Shown here one piece after another: positions 431-28,849 of a stretch of DNA of 29,015 nucleotides. The position numbers were made by a program, and so were the translations under genes. Positions within the stretch are counted from its first letter, which is position 1. Each line of letters opens with the position of its first letter. A model generated the notes under the pieces. It was not told where the DNA came from. It made no database searches and worked only from the letters and a program-made list of their open reading frames with translations. This DNA comes from a virus, in IMG/VR virus record IMGVR_UViG_3300027851_000099, positions 1 through 29,015 of that record; one strand, written 5' to 3'.

Positions 431-460
431 CAGGCGCGGCAGGTTTCCCCGCCGCGCCTG
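431..460 (-). terminator. Perfect 10-bp stem-loop after the capsid gene
   Basis: CAGGCGCGGC at 431-440 pairs perfectly with GCCGCGCCTG at 451-460 around a 10-base loop. It lies 19 bases beyond the capsid stop codon and before the next ribosome binding site. There is no T-run on either strand, so it is not a canonical intrinsic terminator. It may be a weak terminator or an mRNA-stabilising hairpin for the abundant capsid transcript. Confidence 0.4.
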
Positions 461-478: not shown

Positions 479-1432
479 TTAGTCACCGATGGCGAGGACG
501 CCCGCAGTGTGCTTGTACGACGTGGCGACCTTGTCCCAATTGGTGCCGGTCGCCAGTTCGGCGTCGGTCGGGGACTTGCCGCCGTTGGTCTCGTCCCAAG
601 TGTAACCCTTGAGGCCGAGACCGAACGTGTAGTCGATCTGCAGCGTGGTCTCGATGCGCAGCTTGCCGTTCGTCGTCTCGATGTTCGAGATGATGTCGTT
701 GCTGTCGTGGACCATGGCGGCGCCGGCCGTCAGGGTGAGCACGCGCTGCTTCGAGGACGCATACAGTGCCGGGGCGTCGGTGACGACGCTCGGCTTGCCC
801 AGGATGTCGATAACGCGAACGTTGCCGGCCTGGAACAGGTTGGTCGTGTTGCCGAGGTTCTGACCGATGAACTTGTGGTACGTGGTACCGGTCATGACCT
901 GCCCGACGAGCAGCGACGAGTGATCGCCGAAGAGCGCGTGCGAGTCATTCAGATCACCGTAGTCGAGAACCGCACCGCCCGACACGTCGACGGTCGTCGA
1001 GGCGCCCTGCTGAGCGATCGCTGCCACGAGAGCGGCGATGGCGGTGTTGAGCTGGTCCTGGAGCAGCGCTTCGGCGAAGTTGCGGGAAGCAACCTCGATG
1101 CCCTCGGCGGTGGGCTTCAGGAGCCAGGTCATCTGCGACGGTTCGAAACGCACCGGGCCGAAGCCGCCGGCGACCTTCACCGAGCTGTGCTTCAGCTGGG
1201 TCAGATCCGTCGGGGTGGCGTCTTCGTTGGTGGCGTAGCGGTCAACACGCCGGCGGGCCGAGTGGATGGCCGCGTAGAACGATTCCTGGAGGAAGTCGCC
1301 TTCGAAGCCCTCGGTCGTCAGCATGATGCAGTTGTTGGAAGCTGCATTGAACTGATTGACCATCTGCGCCAGCGTCTCGATGGTCGCCGGCATGATATAC
1401 TTGTTGAAAACCTGCATCTGCGAGAGCGACAT
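479..1432 (-). CDS. Major capsid protein
   Basis: This 317-residue protein would form the icosahedral shell. The frame can be extended upstream, but ATG at 1432 has AAGGAG five bases before it and begins MSLSQMQVFNKY, so I use that start. Supporting features are the position directly after a coiled-coil scaffold gene, the length typical of HK97-fold capsid proteins, and a composition rich in beta-strand with Thr/Asn-rich loops. A charged helical stretch lies near residues 55-70 and a GGFGPV segment near residue 88. Stem-loops flank the gene on both sides. The assignment rests on gene order plus general character, not on a diagnostic motif. Confidence 0.82.
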   Translation of the reverse strand: MSLSQMQVFNKYIMPATIETLAQMVNQFNAASNNCIMLTTEGFEGDFLQESFYAAIHSARRRVDRYATNEDATPTDLTQLKHSSVKVAGGFGPVRFEPSQMTWLLKPTAEGIEVASRNFAEALLQDQLNTAIAALVAAIAQQGASTTVDVSGGAVLDYGDLNDSHALFGDHSSLLVGQVMTGTTYHKFIGQNLGNTTNLFQAGNVRVIDILGKPSVVTDAPALYASSKQRVLTLTAGAAMVHDSNDIISNIETTNGKLRIETTLQIDYTFGLGLKGYTWDETNGGKSPTDAELATGTNWDKVATSYKHTAGVLAIGD

Positions 1433-1459
1433 GGTATCTCCTTGGGTCACTCGATTGTT

Positions 1460-1487
1460 GACGGGCACTGCCCAATGAATGCCCGTC
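1460..1487 (-). other. Stem-loop between scaffold and capsid genes
   Basis: GACGGGCA (1460-1467) and TGCCCGTC (1480-1487) form a perfect 8-bp inverted repeat around a 12-base loop. It lies in the 111-base gap between scaffold and capsid genes and there is no T-run. It could be an RNA processing or stability element that lets the capsid message be expressed more than scaffold. That function is inference. Confidence 0.45.
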
Positions 1488-1543
1488 ATCAGAAGGACGG
1501 GTGCTTTCCTACTGCACCACAGGCGCAGGTTTCGAGTTGAGGG

Positions 1544-2302
1544 TTAGCTCAGCTCGGGGAACTTGTTCTTGATCGCGTTGACGCGGTCATTGGTCTTGCC
1601 GCCGAAGTCACCGGTCACGCGGCCGGTACGGCGGTTCACGTTGCCCTGGACGTCCGGGCCCTTGGCGGTCGAGATGTAGGGTTTCCCCTTGTCGCCCGAC
1701 CAGTCCTTGACGAAGTCTGCCACAGGCACCTCGCCGATGTCGGTCTCGACGACCGCGACACGCTCCTGCTGATCGTTTGTGGTCACCTTGACCTTGGGGC
1801 GCAGTGTTGCCACAGCACCGTCCAGCAGGTCCGGGTTCACGCCGATGTCGAGCAGCGCGTCCTTGAGGCCGTTGTCCACCAACGAGTTGTTGATATACCC
1901 GTCGAGCTGGGTGATCTGGCCCTGCGCAGCGGTGAGTTCGGCCGTATGCTTGTCGGTCAGCGTCTTGATCGCCGCCTTGTGCTGGTCCTGGAGCGACTTG
2001 ATCGCTTCCGGGGTCTCGCCCGTGCCAGCCTTGAGACGGTTCCATTCGTCGACCGAGAAGCCCTCGTCTTCAGCGAGCGCACCGAACTTGGCGTTCAGTT
2101 CGTTCAGCTTGGTCTCGAGGTCCTTCTTGTCCTTGTCGACCTTGTTCAGCGAGCCCTTGAGGGTCACTGCCCCGGGGTGCTTGCCGAAGTCGGTGATGTC
2201 GAGGTAGAAGACGGACTTGTCACCGGTCTTCTGTTCCTTGTATTCACCGCGGAACGCTTCGTCGACTTCGTTGATGTCCTCAACGATTGCTTTGAGAGCC
2301 AC
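1544..2302 (-). CDS. Capsid scaffolding protein
   Basis: This 252-residue protein is predicted to guide prohead assembly and then leave the head. GTG at 2302 follows an excellent AAAGGAGG site, and an in-frame GTG at 2326 has none, so the shorter form is preferred. Residues ~50-135 are strongly helical and charged, with heptad-like Leu/Lys/Glu pattern and runs such as KDKKDLETKLNELN, a coiled coil typical of phage scaffolds. The C-terminal part is basic (residues ~215-252), as expected for the capsid-binding end. It lies immediately before the capsid gene, the usual place for a scaffold in siphovirus head cassettes. Confidence 0.82.
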   Translation of the reverse strand: MALKAIVEDINEVDEAFRGEYKEQKTGDKSVFYLDITDFGKHPGAVTLKGSLNKVDKDKKDLETKLNELNAKFGALAEDEGFSVDEWNRLKAGTGETPEAIKSLQDQHKAAIKTLTDKHTAELTAAQGQITQLDGYINNSLVDNGLKDALLDIGVNPDLLDGAVATLRPKVKVTTNDQQERVAVVETDIGEVPVADFVKDWSGDKGKPYISTAKGPDVQGNVNRRTGRVTGDFGGKTNDRVNAIKNKFPELS

Positions 2303-2336
2303 AGGCTCCTCCTTTGTTGCCAGCACTGCTGGCGGG

Positions 2337-2588
2337 TTAGCGGATCAGTTGCGTGACCTTACCTCGGGAGAGGCAGTACGGACAGATCCAAGCCTTGGTG
2401 CCACCGGCCTTACGGCCGTCAGCGGTTCGTAGTGGTGCGACGAACATCTGTATCACCGCACTGGTGGCCACACCTGTGTCAGCTTCGCATTCGTGACAGG
2501 TCACTTGCTCAGGCTGGTCTAGGGTGCGGCGGCGATATGGCTTCCGCTTGCGCGTAGGCCCTTCGACTACCGTCAGCGTTGGCTTCAT
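2337..2588 (-). CDS. Small zinc-ribbon protein in the head cassette
   Basis: This 83-residue protein has a very basic N-terminus (around TRKRKPYRRR) and two Cys pairs, CHEC near residue 35 and CPYC near residue 70, spaced like a zinc ribbon. It overlaps the MuF-like gene by an ATGA junction, so it is translationally coupled to it. Small zinc-ribbon proteins are common between head genes of phages, but their role is usually unknown. A nucleic-acid-binding function is inferred from the basic tail and zinc motif only. Confidence 0.7.
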   Translation of the reverse strand: MKPTLTVVEGPTRKRKPYRRRTLDQPEQVTCHECEADTGVATSAVIQMFVAPLRTADGRKAGGTKAWICPYCLSRGKVTQLIR

Positions 2589-3616
2589 GCCGCTCTAGCT
2601 CGAAGCTGCTCCAGGGTGAGAGCGTCACCCGCGCGATTCGTAAACGAATCAATCTGCTGCCCCTCGCGGAACAGCTTGGCCCGGGCTGGACCAAGAGCGT
2701 CGTCCTGGACCTTATTCGACTGACGCCGCAGCCAGCTCTGGAACGACTCAGGTCGAGTCGCAAGCCCATCGAACTGCATACGCACGTCGGCCGGAAGGTC
2801 GTCCAGGCCAAGCTGGTCCCAGCTCTTGAGCACAGGAACACGAATGCACCTGCATGAGATGTGAGCCGGGGTTTTGATACCTGTCCCGATGTCGAACAGG
2901 CGTCCATCAAGGCCACCGCACGTAAGACAGACTCTGCTGTCGAGCGTGGAGACCCATTGTTCCTTCGAAATGTACGCACGGTTCTTATCGAACAGTGCGT
3001 CCCTCGCAGCCGTAACGGTATGACTGACAGCGGTGCGCACCAGTGCCTCAGCACCGCGCTTGCCGATTTCCAGGATACCGTCCTTGAAGCGCAGCGCCTC
3101 GGTACCGCGGACACGCCGAACGATCTCTTCAATCGACTCGCCCTGCACAACACCCTGACGGATCGCATCGCGCAACCGCCGCGCTTTGTTCTGGTCCAGC
3201 TCGCTGACCCAATCGCGGAGCAGCTTGCCTTGGAACGGCCGACTGTTGACAACCGCGTCAAGCATCTCGGTCGTCGGAACCTTGATCTTCAACCGGTCGA
3301 GCAGTGCTTCCCGGAGCATCTTCTCCTGGGCCTGTAGCTCATAGCGGCTAATGCCCCGTAGCTCCGAGCGAAGCTCTTTTCCGAGCTCCACATGCACGTC
3401 GCGGTTGATCTCGCGCAGGGTGTCGAGCAGCGCCGAGAGCCGTGCACTTGCATAGCCCACTTGGGTAGCGCCACCCCGCCTGATCAGCGTGTCAACGATC
3501 TCAGCGTCAGCACGGTCAAGCAGCCTGCGCAACTTCCGCAGGGTAGCGGAGGAGAGACGCGACACCATTATCTGATGCCGGATTTCTGCGTCGCGAAGGT
3601 CGTTGTTCGCGCTCAT
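2585..3616 (-). CDS. Phage Mu F / SPP1 gp7-like minor head protein
   Basis: This 343-residue protein belongs to the minor head morphogenesis family. Members attach to the portal, and a few copies enter the prohead. The diagnostic region is residues ~220-260, with WVSTLDSRVCLTCGGLDG followed by a P-x-H-x-x-C-R-C segment, the conserved Cys/His signature of the Mu F domain. The N-terminal ~200 residues are largely helical with many Arg and Leu. Start and stop are fixed by ATGA overlaps with the portal gene and with the zinc-ribbon gene. The order portal, MuF, scaffold, capsid is the classic one, which strengthens the call. Some relatives carry C-terminal toxins; this one ends with a short Arg/Gln-rich tail of ~60 residues and no visible toxin domain. 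Confidence 0.88.
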   Translation of the reverse strand: MSANNDLRDAEIRHQIMVSRLSSATLRKLRRLLDRADAEIVDTLIRRGGATQVGYASARLSALLDTLREINRDVHVELGKELRSELRGISRYELQAQEKMLREALLDRLKIKVPTTEMLDAVVNSRPFQGKLLRDWVSELDQNKARRLRDAIRQGVVQGESIEEIVRRVRGTEALRFKDGILEIGKRGAEALVRTAVSHTVTAARDALFDKNRAYISKEQWVSTLDSRVCLTCGGLDGRLFDIGTGIKTPAHISCRCIRVPVLKSWDQLGLDDLPADVRMQFDGLATRPESFQSWLRRQSNKVQDDALGPARAKLFREGQQIDSFTNRAGDALTLEQLRARAA

Positions 3617-5088
3617 TCGACGACAGGCGGGTTGTTCTCCGCCGCGATCTCAGCAGCGAGGCGCATCTCTTCTTCGTTCCGAGCTGCAACCTCGTCAGCT
3701 TCCCGGTTGATCTCCTCGAGCTCTTCTTCGAGGGTCCGATCCGGGTTGATGACGCCACCGCGCTGAAGGTTCCAGAACAGGGTCGAGCGGCTGTAACCGC
3801 CGGACATCCAGCCGGACACCAGTGCGGTGATCTCCTGACCGCTGAGGGTGTGGTCAGCGAAGTCCAGATTGGGCTCCACGGTCACAGCTTCAGGGTCAGC
3901 GCCCACCCACACCGCAAGGTTGCGGAGAGCCTTCTCAAGTCCGGCAGCGCTGGTCATGGCCACACTGCGAAGCGTGGCATGCTGCGAGCCGAGACGGGTC
4001 TCTAGTGCGTCCCCCGATTCAGCGGACTTCTTGTTCTCCATCAGCTGCACGCCGAACACCAGCGCACGGGTGAGGGAGTCCTCGATTGCCTTCTGCTGAG
4101 CGTCCAGGCCCTGGCCGGAGAACTCAAGGTAGCCGGCCGAACCGTGCAGCGGAAGGATCCAGAGCTTGCTGGAACCGATGGTCGTCGGCACTGCGCCGTT
4201 CTTGATCGATGCACCGGGGTCGGGGAAGCCCGATGCCCAAGGCGTCGGCTCGGACGTCATGTGCAGCGCGAAGGTGTAGTCGGCATCCATCCGGTAGACG
4301 CGGACTGCAATCTTGGCGAGCCCGTACAGGGGCACGTCATCGGGTTCAGCTGACAGGTCGTTGGTGTCAACGAACACGAACGGGAGGATGCCGAGGGGCC
4401 TTGCCTGTCCGCCGCGCGGAGTCATCTGCGCAACGGTGTCAGCACCCGCTTCCCACTTGGTACCAGGCTGACCCGCGCCAGTGGTGAGGGTGTAGACCCG
4501 GGACACGTAAGCACCGTTCTCCACGAAACATTCGCGGTAACGTTCGACGTTCTCCCACTTACCCGTGGACCGGTCAAGCTCCATCCCGCTTTCGTCCAGG
4601 AGCACCCACCCTTGCTCGGGCTCGGGGACATCCCAATTGCGGATGGCTTCCGCGCAATACTGCGCGATGTAGGGGTTGCCGCGATCGTCGATGCTGGGCA
4701 GCAGGCCGTAACGGCCAACCGACATGATCTCCGCCGCAATACGACGGTGCAGCGCGTCGAGCGTAAGGCCGTCCCTTGTCGCACGCTCACGCATGCTTTC
4801 CAGCTGCGGCGGCAGCTCGATCTTGGCAGGCTGTGCCAGCATGGTGCCGAGAGCGCCACGGATGGTGGGAGCAACGATCTCCGGGAACTCCGCGCGGACC
4901 ATGTACGCTTCGTAGGCGGCCTGCCGGTCGGTGGCGTCCTCGATGGCGCGGGTGCCCGACTTGATCGGCAGGTACAGCTCCATCCCCTTCTTGATGGCGT
5001 CTTCGCCTTCAATGCAGTCGCGCATGGTCTTCCAGATGGGAAGGTTCCAAGTGAACGACGGATGGACTGACTTCGGATCGAACGGCAT
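3613..5088 (-). CDS. Portal protein, DUF4055 type
   Basis: This 491-residue protein would form the dodecameric ring through which DNA enters and leaves the head. Its N-terminus (W near residue 14, then IWKTMRDCIEGEDAIKKGMELYLP) matches the pattern seen in DUF4055 portal proteins. The length fits that family. The C-terminal ~50 residues are Glu-rich and helical, probably the barrel or tail of the portal. The ATG lies inside the stop codon of the terminase gene (TAATG) and the stop overlaps the MuF start. I place it in DUF4055 from remembered family features, not from a search. Confidence 0.87.
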   Translation of the reverse strand: MPFDPKSVHPSFTWNLPIWKTMRDCIEGEDAIKKGMELYLPIKSGTRAIEDATDRQAAYEAYMVRAEFPEIVAPTIRGALGTMLAQPAKIELPPQLESMRERATRDGLTLDALHRRIAAEIMSVGRYGLLPSIDDRGNPYIAQYCAEAIRNWDVPEPEQGWVLLDESGMELDRSTGKWENVERYRECFVENGAYVSRVYTLTTGAGQPGTKWEAGADTVAQMTPRGGQARPLGILPFVFVDTNDLSAEPDDVPLYGLAKIAVRVYRMDADYTFALHMTSEPTPWASGFPDPGASIKNGAVPTTIGSSKLWILPLHGSAGYLEFSGQGLDAQQKAIEDSLTRALVFGVQLMENKKSAESGDALETRLGSQHATLRSVAMTSAAGLEKALRNLAVWVGADPEAVTVEPNLDFADHTLSGQEITALVSGWMSGGYSRSTLFWNLQRGGVINPDRTLEEELEEINREADEVAARNEEEMRLAAEIAAENNPPVVE

Positions 5089-6371
5089 TACCAGTTCCTC
5101 AACGGAATCACGACGCCTGGCCCATTGGCTTTGATCATCGGTGCCAGGGCGTATCGGATGGCGTCGATGTAGTGGTTGTTAGCATCAACGATCACCGCCA
5201 GCACCTCTTGGGTCAGACGATCAATCTTGAAGCTGTAGACACGGAACTCACGTGCAGTCTGCACGCACCGCGGATGGATGACGACCTTCTCGAACGAGCG
5301 AATGAACGCAATGCCGTCCTCGACGCTGCCTGGCCACTTCTCTACGGCCACACTGCGGGTGAGCGGCACCCGTTCGTCTTCGTCCCGCGCCTTGGGCTTC
5401 CGCAGGTGGCTGATGCTCTCAGGACGTGCGTTGTCCCAGCGCGTGCCCACCTTGTCGAAGTCCGGGATGCGGTCGCAGAGGTACTTGCCGGTATCGTCAA
5501 GCTCAAGCTTGGCCTTACCTGCTTCGTACTCAACCCACAGGCACCCGTCACCGATCCAGACACGCACAGCAGCGGTCGGGTCCTGGCTGAAGCCGAAGTC
5601 ACCGCCCTGATACGGCCCGTCCCAATTCCAGGCCGGGGTGAACTCTTCGACGACGAACTTGCCGTGGAAGATCTGCGCCTCTGTGTTGGTGAGGAACGCG
5701 CCCTCCCACACATGGTCGTAAGTGTCTGCGCGCAGGCGCTGGTCTTCGAGGCGCTGGAGGTTCGACAGCCTTGGGAACCAAGGGTTGTCCATCCAGTTGA
5801 CTTCAGTGACGATGCAGTCTTCTGCCTGATCCATCACGAAGCGCTTGTGCGTCGGGCTGTCGGGCGACTCCGGGTTATAGCTGATCCAGTTCTCAGCCAT
5901 CCACCCGGGACCTTCCTCGCGGAGGGTACCCGTCAGCTTCCGCCATGCCACTTCAGACACTGCTTCCGCTTCGTCAGTCCAGTTCCCAATGATGCGGGCC
6001 TTGGACTTGATCGCGCTGTCCAGGTTGGTGCGCAACCCTGCAAAGACGTAGTCGATCCGCCGGTTCTTGGTGCGGATGTACTTCTCACCGATGTCGAAGT
6101 AGTCGGTGAGCCAGGGCTCGGAATAGATCGCCTGCTTGATTTCCTCAAGCGAGCTTTCCTCGAGCGAGTTCAGGTGCTCGCGGGAGCTAAGGAACACCCC
6201 GCGGACGCCCATCTCTGCCAGTTGGTAGACGCGGATCGCTGACCGCTTAGCCAGCCCCCGCGTCTTCCCGCTGCCTCGTCCACCCTTGAATATCCGGGTG
6301 CGGGCAGGCTGCATGAAGTTCCCCGTGATCTTGGGGATCTCTTGGATGGTCGCCTTAACCGGGTGCGCCAC
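5088..6371 (-). CDS. terL: Terminase large subunit
   Basis: This is the packaging motor: an N-terminal ATPase that pumps DNA and a C-terminal RNase-H-like nuclease that cuts it. Walker A is GGRGSGKT at residues 30-37, and an acidic Walker B-like segment (NWTDEAEAV) lies near residue 130. Nuclease motifs are GGDFGFSQDPTAA in the middle third and HYIDAIRYAL near the end, the latter highly typical of phage terminases. I use GTG at 6371 because GGAG lies 7 bases upstream. It overlaps the small-subunit gene by 17 bases. The frame is open further upstream, so a longer form starting at 6413 cannot be excluded. Length of 427 residues is normal. Confidence 0.93.
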   Translation of the reverse strand: MAHPVKATIQEIPKITGNFMQPARTRIFKGGRGSGKTRGLAKRSAIRVYQLAEMGVRGVFLSSREHLNSLEESSLEEIKQAIYSEPWLTDYFDIGEKYIRTKNRRIDYVFAGLRTNLDSAIKSKARIIGNWTDEAEAVSEVAWRKLTGTLREEGPGWMAENWISYNPESPDSPTHKRFVMDQAEDCIVTEVNWMDNPWFPRLSNLQRLEDQRLRADTYDHVWEGAFLTNTEAQIFHGKFVVEEFTPAWNWDGPYQGGDFGFSQDPTAAVRVWIGDGCLWVEYEAGKAKLELDDTGKYLCDRIPDFDKVGTRWDNARPESISHLRKPKARDEDERVPLTRSVAVEKWPGSVEDGIAFIRSFEKVVIHPRCVQTAREFRVYSFKIDRLTQEVLAVIVDANNHYIDAIRYALAPMIKANGPGVVIPLRNW

Positions 6372-6909
6372 TACCGGGCTCCGGGTTCTGCTGCTGCGGA
6401 GCCACGAACTCAATCACCGTGGGCTTCTGCGACATGCTGCCGTCGGAGCTGGTGTGGTCACTGACTTCCGCCAGGCCCAGGTCACGGGAGACAATGTTCG
6501 CATTCAGCAGCCCTGCGGCCGCTGCGCTGAACTTCATCTCCCACATGATGGTCTCGCACCACTCAATCGCGGGCACAAGGTCCGGGCGTTCCTGCTTCCA
6601 GCGCAACCACTCGCGGCGGCTGGTGCCAAGAAATGCACACAGGCCCGCAATGGTCAGCGCACGGAGCTTCTTCGAGCCGTGGGTCGAAGCATCGCCCTGA
6701 TACCAGCCAACGACCTCCTCCTCGTGCGGGTTCTCATCTGCCCACTGGAAGTAGGCGATGGCTTCCTCGACAAGGTGCTCAGCCGACTTGACCAGGCGCT
6801 CCGGGCCCTTGTTGAACTTGCGGAGCTGCCACAGCTTGTTCCCCGCGTAGAACCCCTCGGGTTCCTGCGGGCGAATCGGCACATTGATTTCGGATTCATC
6901 GTCCGCCAC
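6355..6909 (-). CDS. terS: Terminase small subunit (gp3-like)
   Basis: This 184-residue protein would recognise the packaging site and recruit the large subunit. The pattern FYAGNKLW near residue 20, then AYFQWADENP, KKLRALTIAGLCAFLGTSRREW and LLNANIVSRDLGLAEVSD matches the small terminase family sometimes named DNA-packaging protein gp3. The LGTS-RREW part is the helix-turn-helix-like DNA-binding core. Start is GTG at 6909 with GAGGTG six bases before it. The C-terminal ~25 residues are Pro/Gln/Gly-rich and probably bind the large subunit. A 63-base gap separates it from the NusG-like gene, the widest gap nearby. Confidence 0.9.
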   Translation of the reverse strand: MADDESEINVPIRPQEPEGFYAGNKLWQLRKFNKGPERLVKSAEHLVEEAIAYFQWADENPHEEEVVGWYQGDASTHGSKKLRALTIAGLCAFLGTSRREWLRWKQERPDLVPAIEWCETIMWEMKFSAAAAGLLNANIVSRDLGLAEVSDHTSSDGSMSQKPTVIEFVAPQQQNPEPGSGAPG

Positions 6910-6972
6910 TTGGACACCTCATGGCTGCGCACTCGCCGAGACACGGTCCCGGGTGCTAGGTATCGGAGGGTG

Positions 6973-7539
6973 TCAAACACTCATCCCCGGCGCCTCAAGG
7001 GAGGCATTAACCCTGACTGTTAACAGAGAGCCGTGGAGCAGTAAAGTGGAAAGGTTAAGTCCACCGTCTTTGGTGATCTTCAGCTTAACTTCACCTGACC
7101 TTCGAACGTCCATCACTATACCTTCGACTTCGGCCAAGAACGTACCCGCTTTGACAGATACCTCGTCGCCTTTGCGGAAGATACACTCGGGACCAAGTAT
7201 TGACGGTTCGGGGACAACCCAATGGTCAATGGCGTAAACTTCCTTGTCAGAACAGGTTGCGTACCCGCCGTGCGGTAGACGCATGATCTTGACGAACGGG
7301 AACTTGCGCTCAACATAGTTCGCCCAGTAGAGGTCGCCTGTCCATTGGATGAACAGGAAGTTGCCCAGGAGCGGGACGTCGCATTCGACCCGCTCCCGGT
7401 TGCGCCCCACCCGCTTCTCTACGCGGATGGTTGGACACTGCACGCCGGTCTTGTCGATGCCAAGCTCGTGGGCGTAGTTGCGCAGCGCGTCAAGCTGCTT
7501 GAGGGCATCGGAAGGTCGGCAGCGCAGTATCAGGAACAT
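6973..7539 (-). CDS. NusG/RfaH-like transcription elongation factor
   Basis: This 188-residue protein has the two-domain plan of NusG. Residues 1-110 resemble the NGN domain: a first strand MFLILRCRPSDAL, then the hallmark region ECDVPLLGNFLFIQW (52-66) that parallels the PGYVFV element of NusG. Residues ~120-175 carry a KOW-like beta-barrel, with FRKGDEVSVKAGTFLAEVEGIV matching the GD.V.V..G.F....G.V KOW pattern. NusG-type factors bind RNA polymerase and reduce pausing or termination. It sits directly upstream of the terminase and head genes, so a role in letting polymerase read through the long leftward operon is likely but inferred. ATG at 7539 overlaps the upstream stop (TGATG). No search was run; the KOW half is the stronger evidence. 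Confidence 0.8.
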   Translation of the reverse strand: MFLILRCRPSDALKQLDALRNYAHELGIDKTGVQCPTIRVEKRVGRNRERVECDVPLLGNFLFIQWTGDLYWANYVERKFPFVKIMRLPHGGYATCSDKEVYAIDHWVVPEPSILGPECIFRKGDEVSVKAGTFLAEVEGIVMDVRRSGEVKLKITKDGGLNLSTLLLHGSLLTVRVNASLEAPGMSV

Positions 7540-7772
7540 CAGGTCGGGCTCGGGAGGTTCACAAGGACGAAGATGGTGATGAGGAAGAACGTCACCAGCA
7601 TCACAGCGAGTGCCCAGCGAGCCCACACGGGCAGGTCGGGGATGCGCTTGTAGCCGAAGCCGTGGCAGTTGTGGCAGGGGAGGCCGAAACCGCTCTCAGT
7701 CATCTCGCTGCCCGTACCGTTACAGGTCTCGCAGATGTAATGGCGGGGAGTCGCAGCATAGTGTCCGTACAT
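7539..7772 (-). CDS. Membrane protein with DnaJ-type zinc finger
   Basis: This 77-residue protein contains two CxxCxGxG repeats (CETCNGTG near residue 14 and CHNCHGFG near residue 33), the zinc-finger repeats of DnaJ. They are followed by a ~22-residue hydrophobic helix (residues ~52-74, from WALAVM to LVNL). With Arg/Lys before the helix, the zinc finger should face the cytoplasm. There is no J domain. It is coupled to the NusG-like gene by a TGATG overlap. Such short DnaJ-finger proteins may bind unfolded proteins or redox partners; the function is unknown. Confidence 0.75.
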   Translation of the reverse strand: MYGHYAATPRHYICETCNGTGSEMTESGFGLPCHNCHGFGYKRIPDLPVWARWALAVMLVTFFLITIFVLVNLPSPT

Positions 7773-9568: not shown

Positions 9569-10066
9569 TCAGTTCTCGCTCAGGATGTGCTGAGCCTCGA
9601 GATAGTGGTCGTCGGGACTGAGTTCGGGATTGTTGTGCACAAGGGGCTGACCGTGCGAGGGGCCCTTCAGCTTCTCGTACTCTTCCAGCGCGTCGATCAT
9701 CTCGTAGACGGTAATCGACGCACCGACCGTGATCACCTGCGGTCTGCTTGTCAGCCACATGGCGAACTCACGGACCTTGTCGGTGCTGGGGACCGCATCA
9801 CCGGGACGGCGCTCGCGGGGGAACTTGAGCAGCGCCCAGTTGAAGAGCGACACCTTGCCGGTCTCGGGCAGGATGATGTTGTGCAGGTGGAACGAGCGGT
9901 ACGGTGACCCGTCGCGGCCGCGGCTGTAGTCCCAGCCCGCGATGACCCATCCGGGCTGATAACCGAAATCGGGGTGGCTGGTGAAGTCGAAGCCCATGAA
10001 CACCATGTCGATGTCCCGGTCTTCAATTTTGCCCTCGTGGTTCTTGTACTTGAACTGGATCCTCAC
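9569..10066 (-). CDS. WYL-like protein
   Basis: The first ~70 residues follow the pattern of WYL-type beta-barrel domains: QFKYKNHEGKIEDRDID (a strand pair with the typical Y-x-N-x-x-G-x-x-x-x-R), then HPDFGYQPGWVIAGWDYSRG and an Arg-containing YRSFHLHNIIL strand. WYL domains bind ligands or nucleic acid and often regulate transcription or nucleases. The C-terminal ~60 residues, helical and acidic, are not recognised. There is no DNA-binding helix-turn-helix in this protein, but the gene directly upstream encodes one, and the two overlap as GTGA. The GTG start at 10066 has AGGGA six bases upstream. Confidence 0.55.
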   Translation of the reverse strand: MRIQFKYKNHEGKIEDRDIDMVFMGFDFTSHPDFGYQPGWVIAGWDYSRGRDGSPYRSFHLHNIILPETGKVSLFNWALLKFPRERRPGDAVPSTDKVREFAMWLTSRPQVITVGASITVYEMIDALEEYEKLKGPSHGQPLVHNNPELSPDDHYLEAQHILSEN

Positions 10067-10650
10067 GGGTTGTCCCTTCTGATAAGCATACGGATGTAAT
10101 CCGCCTTGGATGAGCCACGGCGCTTGGCTCCAGCGTAGACTTTCTGATTGAGCTCTTTGTCGAGCTGCAACCGGAACAGTATGTTGCCTCCGAGAGCAGG
10201 TCTACGGGTTCGTAACAGCCCCGCGCGTTGCTGGTTACTGACCTCGTTCTTGACGGTCTTTTCTGACACGTCAAGCTCAGCAGCAATAACGGACAGCTTC
10301 GTGCCGTCCTTATACAGGCGGGTGACGTACCGCTTGTCGTCCTCTGTCAGCAGCGCAGGGCGCCCAGGCTTGGACACCGACTTGGTGACCTCCTTGGCAC
10401 GCGCTACCCACTTCTCTGTCAGCTTGGCTTCGGTCCATTGACCGTCGCGAGGTGCTTCGGACACCCGGTTGGCTTGGGGTTCAGCACGGATGACGCCCAA
10501 CGTCTTGGCGTTACGCGAAATGAACCCGGTGATCGCGTTGGCAGTGGTGCCGTGCTTGGCTCCCATCTCCTTCTGCGATAGCCCGTCGTGGAGGCCCGCA
10601 GCTACAGCCGCGAGCTTCTCGTTTGAGGTGTAGGTTGACCACACTGTCAT
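10063..10650 (-). CDS. Multi-domain DNA-binding regulator, GcrA-like N-terminus
   Basis: This 195-residue protein appears to hold three DNA-binding units. Residues ~1-50 resemble the GcrA type of helix-turn-helix (W near the start, GLSQKEMGAKHGTTANAITGFISRN). Residues ~95-145 form a second helix-turn-helix after a GRP motif (SKPGRPALLTEDDKRYV, then LSVIAAELDVSEKTVKNEV). Residues ~157-192 look like a ribbon-helix-helix (LFRLQLDKELNQKVYAGAKRRG, then KADYIRMLI). GcrA acts with sigma-70 at methylated sites in alphaproteobacteria; whether this protein does so is unknown. It overlaps the WYL-like gene and the small helical gene upstream. Confidence 0.72.
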   Translation of the reverse strand: MTVWSTYTSNEKLAAVAAGLHDGLSQKEMGAKHGTTANAITGFISRNAKTLGVIRAEPQANRVSEAPRDGQWTEAKLTEKWVARAKEVTKSVSKPGRPALLTEDDKRYVTRLYKDGTKLSVIAAELDVSEKTVKNEVSNQQRAGLLRTRRPALGGNILFRLQLDKELNQKVYAGAKRRGSSKADYIRMLIRRDNP

Positions 10651-13924: not shown

Positions 13925-14124
13925 CAGAGGATCCCCGCCAGGAACGCGCTGAACTGCATCAGCAGGATGCAGCCCACCGCAATGAGGATGAGCAGGTCCG
14001 AGCGCGGACCCTGTCCCATCGTAGAGTTGATGGTGCCGCGCACAATGAGCAGCACGGTGGCGAACGCCAGCAGCAGGCAGAAGAGGATGAGCCCTGTGAT
14101 CAGGACGACATTCGGGATAAGCAC
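13921..14124 (-). CDS. Small two-helix membrane protein
   Basis: A GTG start at 14124 has a near-perfect site (AAGGAGG, five bases away), giving 67 residues. Two hydrophobic helices lie at about residues 2-28 and 43-65, joined by a polar loop with Arg (RGTINSTMGQGPRSD). It is predicted as an inner-membrane protein. The function is unknown. Confidence 0.65.
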   Translation of the reverse strand: MLIPNVVLITGLILFCLLLAFATVLLIVRGTINSTMGQGPRSDLLILIAVGCILLMQFSAFLAGILW

Positions 14125-14406
14125 GGCAACCTCCTTGGTTGACGACTAAGGGAGGTCCCTGCAGAGACCTCCCTATCCGGTGCCAGACTCCTATCAGCCA
14201 GCGCTGCCTATCCTTGCGGGAATCGGGGTACTGCGCCACCGGCTGACGATGCGGGACCGCACCTCGGGGGAAGTGCGGTCCCTGACGACCGAGTTGGGAG
14301 TAGCGTCAGCGGGGGCAATGCTTCAGCTAGCCAGTGGCCCTGGCACCCGGTCGTTGTGGTGTAGCGTGCGCCAGGATCAAGGAGCTACGCAAGCGGGTAT
14401 TTGCAC
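14125..14406 (-). other. 282-base gene-free stretch with two hairpins
   Basis: No convincing gene is seen here. Two perfect inverted repeats are present: AGGGAGGTC/GACCTCCCT at 14149-14157 and 14166-14174 (9 bp, 8-base loop), and GGGACCGCAC/GTGCGGTCCC at 14253-14262 and 14273-14282 (10 bp, 10-base loop). Neither has a T-run. They may be factor-dependent terminators or RNA processing sites between the upstream small genes and the next leftward group. Confidence 0.45.
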
Positions 14407-28813: not shown

Positions 28814-28849
28814 ACATCGATGTGCAGAAAGTATCTTGCGCATCGATGT
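28814..28849. repeat. Twin CATCGATG palindromes, candidate operator
   Basis: ACATCGATGT (28814-28823) and GCATCGATGT (28840-28849) are 26 bases apart, roughly 2.5 helical turns. The right copy overlaps the -35 of a candidate promoter. The two also pair with each other as a 12-bp stem with one G-T, so they may act as RNA hairpin or as DNA binding sites. Confidence 0.5.

Follow-up and report, generated by a model that had tools for sequence, protein, structure and literature searches.

The 29,015-nucleotide stretch of viral DNA analysed here (the window) encodes, directly before its packaging and head genes, a protein whose membership of the NusG/Spt5 family is well supported, and this protein is probably (at roughly 60%) a phage-borne, specialised NusG paralog acting as a late antiterminator. 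Directly supported here are the family membership and the place immediately before the terminase, in the window and in other lineages. To our knowledge, how late genes are controlled is unknown for most non-model phages; a NusG-fold gene occupying one slot before unrelated terminases would offer a testable late-antitermination route besides N-type complexes and Q. The gene and its neighbours in the window are as follows.

7539..7772, minus strand: upstream ORF whose stop codon overlaps the start of the NusG-like gene; its product has two zinc motifs of CxxCxGxG type and, after them, a probable membrane helix
6973..7539, minus strand: NusG-like ORF, 188 aa, with a divergent C-terminal tail
6910..6972, minus strand: gap of 63 bp between the NusG-like gene and the terminase small subunit gene
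6355..6909, minus strand: terminase small subunit (TerS), the first packaging gene downstream (phrog_606, E 4e-31)
5088..6413, minus strand: terminase large subunit (TerL; phrog_3717, E 9e-52)
479..5088, minus strand: portal, MuF-type head protein, scaffold and major capsid protein, the start of the proposed late target

The preliminary description had placed the gene just before the packaging and head genes, and the order found is exactly that, with TerS 63 bp downstream, then TerL, portal, MuF-type protein, scaffold and major capsid protein. The position is that of a Q gene, directly before these genes and on the same strand. The leftward block to which they belong also exists, but its length is nearer 18 kb than the 16 kb first given; the plus strand from 19 kb carries primase, Sak4-like protein, SSB, Cas4-type exonuclease and helicase genes. 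The ATG of the NusG-like ORF overlaps the TGA of the ORF upstream. That upstream ORF was considered as Q proper and rejected, since its weak Q-like matches (E ~0.06) trace to the zinc motifs and its product probably contains a membrane helix.

Several kinds of comparison place the 188-aa protein among NusG relatives. In a PHROG profile search, phrog_6386, annotated “transcription antiterminator,” matches residues 29-158 with an E-value of 6.5e-5; this profile also gives matches in all 14 cellular control genomes, as is expected of a NusG-family profile. A hidden Markov model built from 16 NusG-like sequences, with the window protein left out, recovers it at E 4.5e-8 when searched against every window ORF together with 2000 shuffled copies, while the best shuffle or other window ORF reaches only E 0.9 (0.4 with a second profile). 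With hhalign, the bare sequence aligns to E. coli NusG over residues 33-146. Identity to relatives is about 14-25% across alignments (14-23% in one, up to 25% in another). The Pfam search of the protein gave no match, PF02357 not reaching it, and a search with PF02357 across 50 related records found nothing. At BLAST level the protein has no match in GTDB genomes, nothing credible in phages, and a single match in IMG/VR, a contig of 6.8 kb in which the NusG-like protein is 100% identical.

The window protein is thus a very divergent new member of a kind already known by annotation. Phage NusG relatives had been called little described; they are indeed little studied, but several are already annotated and the one in the window is not the first. 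A literature search for phage-encoded NusG with terminase or late genes, with subscription journals mostly outside its coverage, found no dedicated study, and the kind is experimentally uncharacterised. It is very unlikely that the NusG-like protein is decaying or has been repurposed without a role in transcription. Its very low identity to all relatives and the divergent C-terminal tail would fit decay, and purifying selection cannot be shown with no second, non-identical copy; however, the reading frame is intact, the NGN core motif PLLGNFLFI and the KOW core FRKGDEVSVKAGTF are retained, and complete-looking NusG proteins are encoded in the same slot in relatives.

The predicted structure agrees with the sequence comparisons and divides the protein as follows.

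Residues ~1-90: NGN-like half
Residues ~90-118: linker, low confidence
Residues ~119-168: KOW-like half, followed by the divergent C-terminal tail

An AF2 model computed from an alignment of 13 sequences (the window protein and 12 relatives) has a pLDDT of 61 and a pTM of 0.40, with residues 89-115 and 170-188 unreliable; from the single sequence, AF2 gave a pLDDT of 38 and no usable fold. The top Foldseek matches of the model in the PDB are all NusG, RfaH or Spt5. In a second structure comparison both domains were spanned only by NusG/Spt5 chains, with a Z of about 7 that is not decisive alone. Since NusG-like proteins made up the alignment behind the model, the fold and sequence results are not wholly independent, and the NGN-KOW fold is predicted with moderate, alignment-dependent confidence. 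The best PDB chain by phmmer, the KOW domain of Thermus thermophilus NusG, reaches an E-value of only 1; on the model it superposes at 2.2 Å over 47 columns, 34% of them identical. An NGN-like half joined to a C-terminal KOW-like domain had been proposed from the letters of the sequence, with structure prediction against NusG and RfaH named as a check; phrog_6386, the leave-out model, hhalign and the AF2/Foldseek comparison all bear this out.

Within the KOW half the window protein departs from housekeeping NusG. The I-F-G-R stretch of the E. coli NusG KOW domain makes the S10 and Rho contacts. In an alignment that is moderately certain at this point, the window protein has ITKDGG instead, so that an IFGR-type stretch for S10 or Rho was not found, and its final KOW strands are divergent. 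E. coli NusG shares the NGN-KOW order, the core motifs and the predicted fold, but it is a housekeeping protein encoded in a secE-nusG operon and has only ~19% identity to the window protein. The altered stretch bears on two other explanations. If the protein were an RfaH-like coupling factor, it would mainly boost the translation of late mRNAs rather than suppress terminators; RfaH does both, and RfaH and NusG alike match the fold, but this is very unlikely, as conservation is lacking at the KOW residues that should face S10 and a conserved terminator in a related clade (below) points to control of termination. Alternatively, the protein could be a host-directed NusG mimic that sits on RNA polymerase in place of NusG and generally blocks Rho-dependent silencing or the coupling of transcription to translation, with no specific late target. 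A KOW half without I-F-G-R could act as a competitor of host NusG that gives Rho no support, and any specific recruitment site in the window is putative. This reading is unlikely nonetheless: one would look for a general anti-Rho factor among the early genes, at no fixed position, while relatives repeatedly have the gene last before the terminase and some of them keep FGR.

Searches begun from NusG proteins led to seven other phage or prophage lineages with such a gene: Microcystis phage yong2 (its order read by joining both ends of the record), Bradyrhizobium ppBjS10J-1, Labrenzia V1, Mesorhizobium P1, L185, the L186-L189 group, and L190. In all seven, as read from the neighbourhoods, the NusG-like gene is co-directional with the terminase and ends ~0.3-3.4 kb upstream of it, and the terminases belong to different PHROGs (phrog_2, 9, 38 and 979). 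By our own estimate, a randomly placed gene in a ~40-kb genome would have about a 4% chance per case of lying in this slot. The same gene order is found in phiLM21 and RHph_TM3_3_3. Positions were read for ordinary-sized phages, large phages with NusG-like genes such as MaAM05 being left out, and several “phage” records among the matches of the NusG search look like bacterial sequence. The annotated ordinary-sized carriers are yong2, ppBjS10J-1, V1, P1, phiLM21 and the RHph phages; IMG/VR adds L185, the L186-L198 clade and L190. Searches among relatives of the window by terminase and capsid found NusG-like genes in four further records (L004, L038, L092 and L132), with the order before the terminase read directly in the first three.

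These carriers resemble the window to different degrees. In yong2, V1, P1 and ppBjS10J-1 the protein has both NGN and KOW and the gene occupies the same slot, but identity is 14-23% and most of those aligned keep an FGR-like KOW turn that the window protein lacks. The proteins of phiLM21 (gp34), RHph_TM3_3_3, RHph_N28_2 and PHROG 6386 are likewise of NGN type, encoded last in the early block and before the terminase, but in the phiLM21 and RHph proteins, at ~20% identity, the C-terminal half looks helical and non-KOW in the alignment. Their designation as antiterminators is putative, being one of annotation; in phiLM21-like prophages the early region has already been described as ending with an antiterminator (PMC12429752).

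Three side observations concern these loci. An HNH endonuclease gene (a tRNA-Met gene in two rhizobial phages) recurs between the NusG-like gene and the terminase in L088, L089, L181, L182 and L186-L189. In L092 the NusG-like gene (608-1003, plus strand) overlaps the next gene, whose product has the look of a winged-helix DNA-binding domain of response-regulator type. In L003, a related prophage, an NGN-like gene is seemingly split into pieces at 3722-4633 (plus strand) and 9582-10193 (minus strand) that flank the terminase, as if by inversion or misassembly.

The clearest picture of what such a gene may do comes from the L186-L197 clade. In eight sequences the ~200 nt following its NusG-like gene have a mean column identity of 83%, with predicted stem-loops and a few compensatory changes; in seven of the eight this conserved leader closes with a GC stem and then TTTTTT, ahead of the HNH and terminase genes. 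A U-tract terminator also lies between the NusG-like gene and the terminase of Labrenzia V1. Such a leader with its terminator is what one would predict for a factor that allows polymerase to enter the late genes. This layout resembles the LoaP system, in which a leader hairpin and a terminator are both defined (PMC12691694), and the clade would make a good model system for phage NusG antitermination; such small, divergent NusG paralogs, accompanied in that clade by a conserved leader and terminator, are also material for studying how NusG paralogs choose their targets.

A late antitermination role for the window protein is thus argued by its position before TerS, by the co-directional slot in lineages with different terminases, by the leader and terminator in L186-L197 and the terminator in V1, and by the best-studied NusG paralogs, RfaH and LoaP, which are antiterminators of long operons (PMC7593976, PMC12691694). 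The NGN domain would dock on the host RNA polymerase transcribing the leftward unit and host NusG would be displaced by the phage paralog; the polymerase would become resistant to pausing and termination, with processive transcription of the packaging, head and later genes as the result, in effect a Q-like switch built from the NusG fold. Lambda Q has a comparable position before the late genes and a comparable role to the one proposed, but belongs to a protein family unrelated to NusG; Q loads at a promoter-proximal pause via a specific DNA element (PMC7171158). RfaH and LoaP are likewise NusG-fold antiterminators dedicated to long operons, but they are cellular genes; RfaH uses ops DNA and LoaP requires a leader RNA hairpin (PMC12691694), whereas the window has no ops-like site above chance and a LoaP-like hairpin is not established. 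Any recruitment element for the phage paralog is putative. Against late antitermination, the 63-bp gap of the window leaves no room for a leader and terminator before TerS, so that the window lacks the layout that makes the strongest case for the role in relatives; the AF2 model has moderate confidence and depends on its alignment; and the gene is sporadic among relatives by capsid (2 of 50) and terminase (few of 50, and 1 of 50 by profile search). Since a detectable NusG-like gene is this rare, most related phages manage late transcription without one. The dedicated antitermination factor of the preliminary description stands as to NusG identity and late-gene entrance, while its Q-like role is favoured by comparative genomics.

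That description also raised the possibility that the factor might read through hairpins without a T-tract in a block with few visible promoters, which for the window protein is hypothetical. The hairpins are there, three of them on the late strand.

14253..14282, minus strand: 13-bp hairpin without U-tract, followed by GCA-TCGTCA, in the 283-nt intergenic region 14124-14406
14149..14174, minus strand: 11-bp hairpin without U-tract, followed by TAG-TCGTCA, in the same intergenic region
431..460, minus strand: 13-bp hairpin without U-tract, just 3′ of the capsid gene, followed by AAG-TCGTCA

The scarcity of promoters is uninformative, as consensus promoter-like and U-tract terminator-like sites in the window are no commoner than in shuffles. 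An ops-like pattern is at most weakly above chance (25 vs 17), and an Rfam scan found no family at its threshold. The three hairpins have stems of 11-13 bp and 4-nt loops; the stem sequences vary and are unrelated, while the tail is fixed as N3-TCGTCA. One hexamer at one offset in 3 of 29 hairpins occurs in 0.8% of random draws, which is suggestive rather than proof of a non-random element. A hairpin followed by N3-TCGTCA at the same spacing was not found in about 200 related loci, and two of the three copies lie ~7 kb upstream of the NusG-like gene. They may be candidate terminators, processing sites or recruitment sites. It is quite improbable, as a broader proposal, that NusG-fold proteins are recurrent phage late antiterminators that replace Q in several unrelated siphophage and prophage lineages, and that the window version, without S10 or Rho contact, is recruited by, or reads through, the hairpins and their TCGTCA element. 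A fourth TCGTCA lies directly 5′ of the hairpin at 14253-14282, and a further hairpin, with a 14-bp stem, lies at 28814-28849, at the window's end and immediately beyond the final plus-strand ORF.
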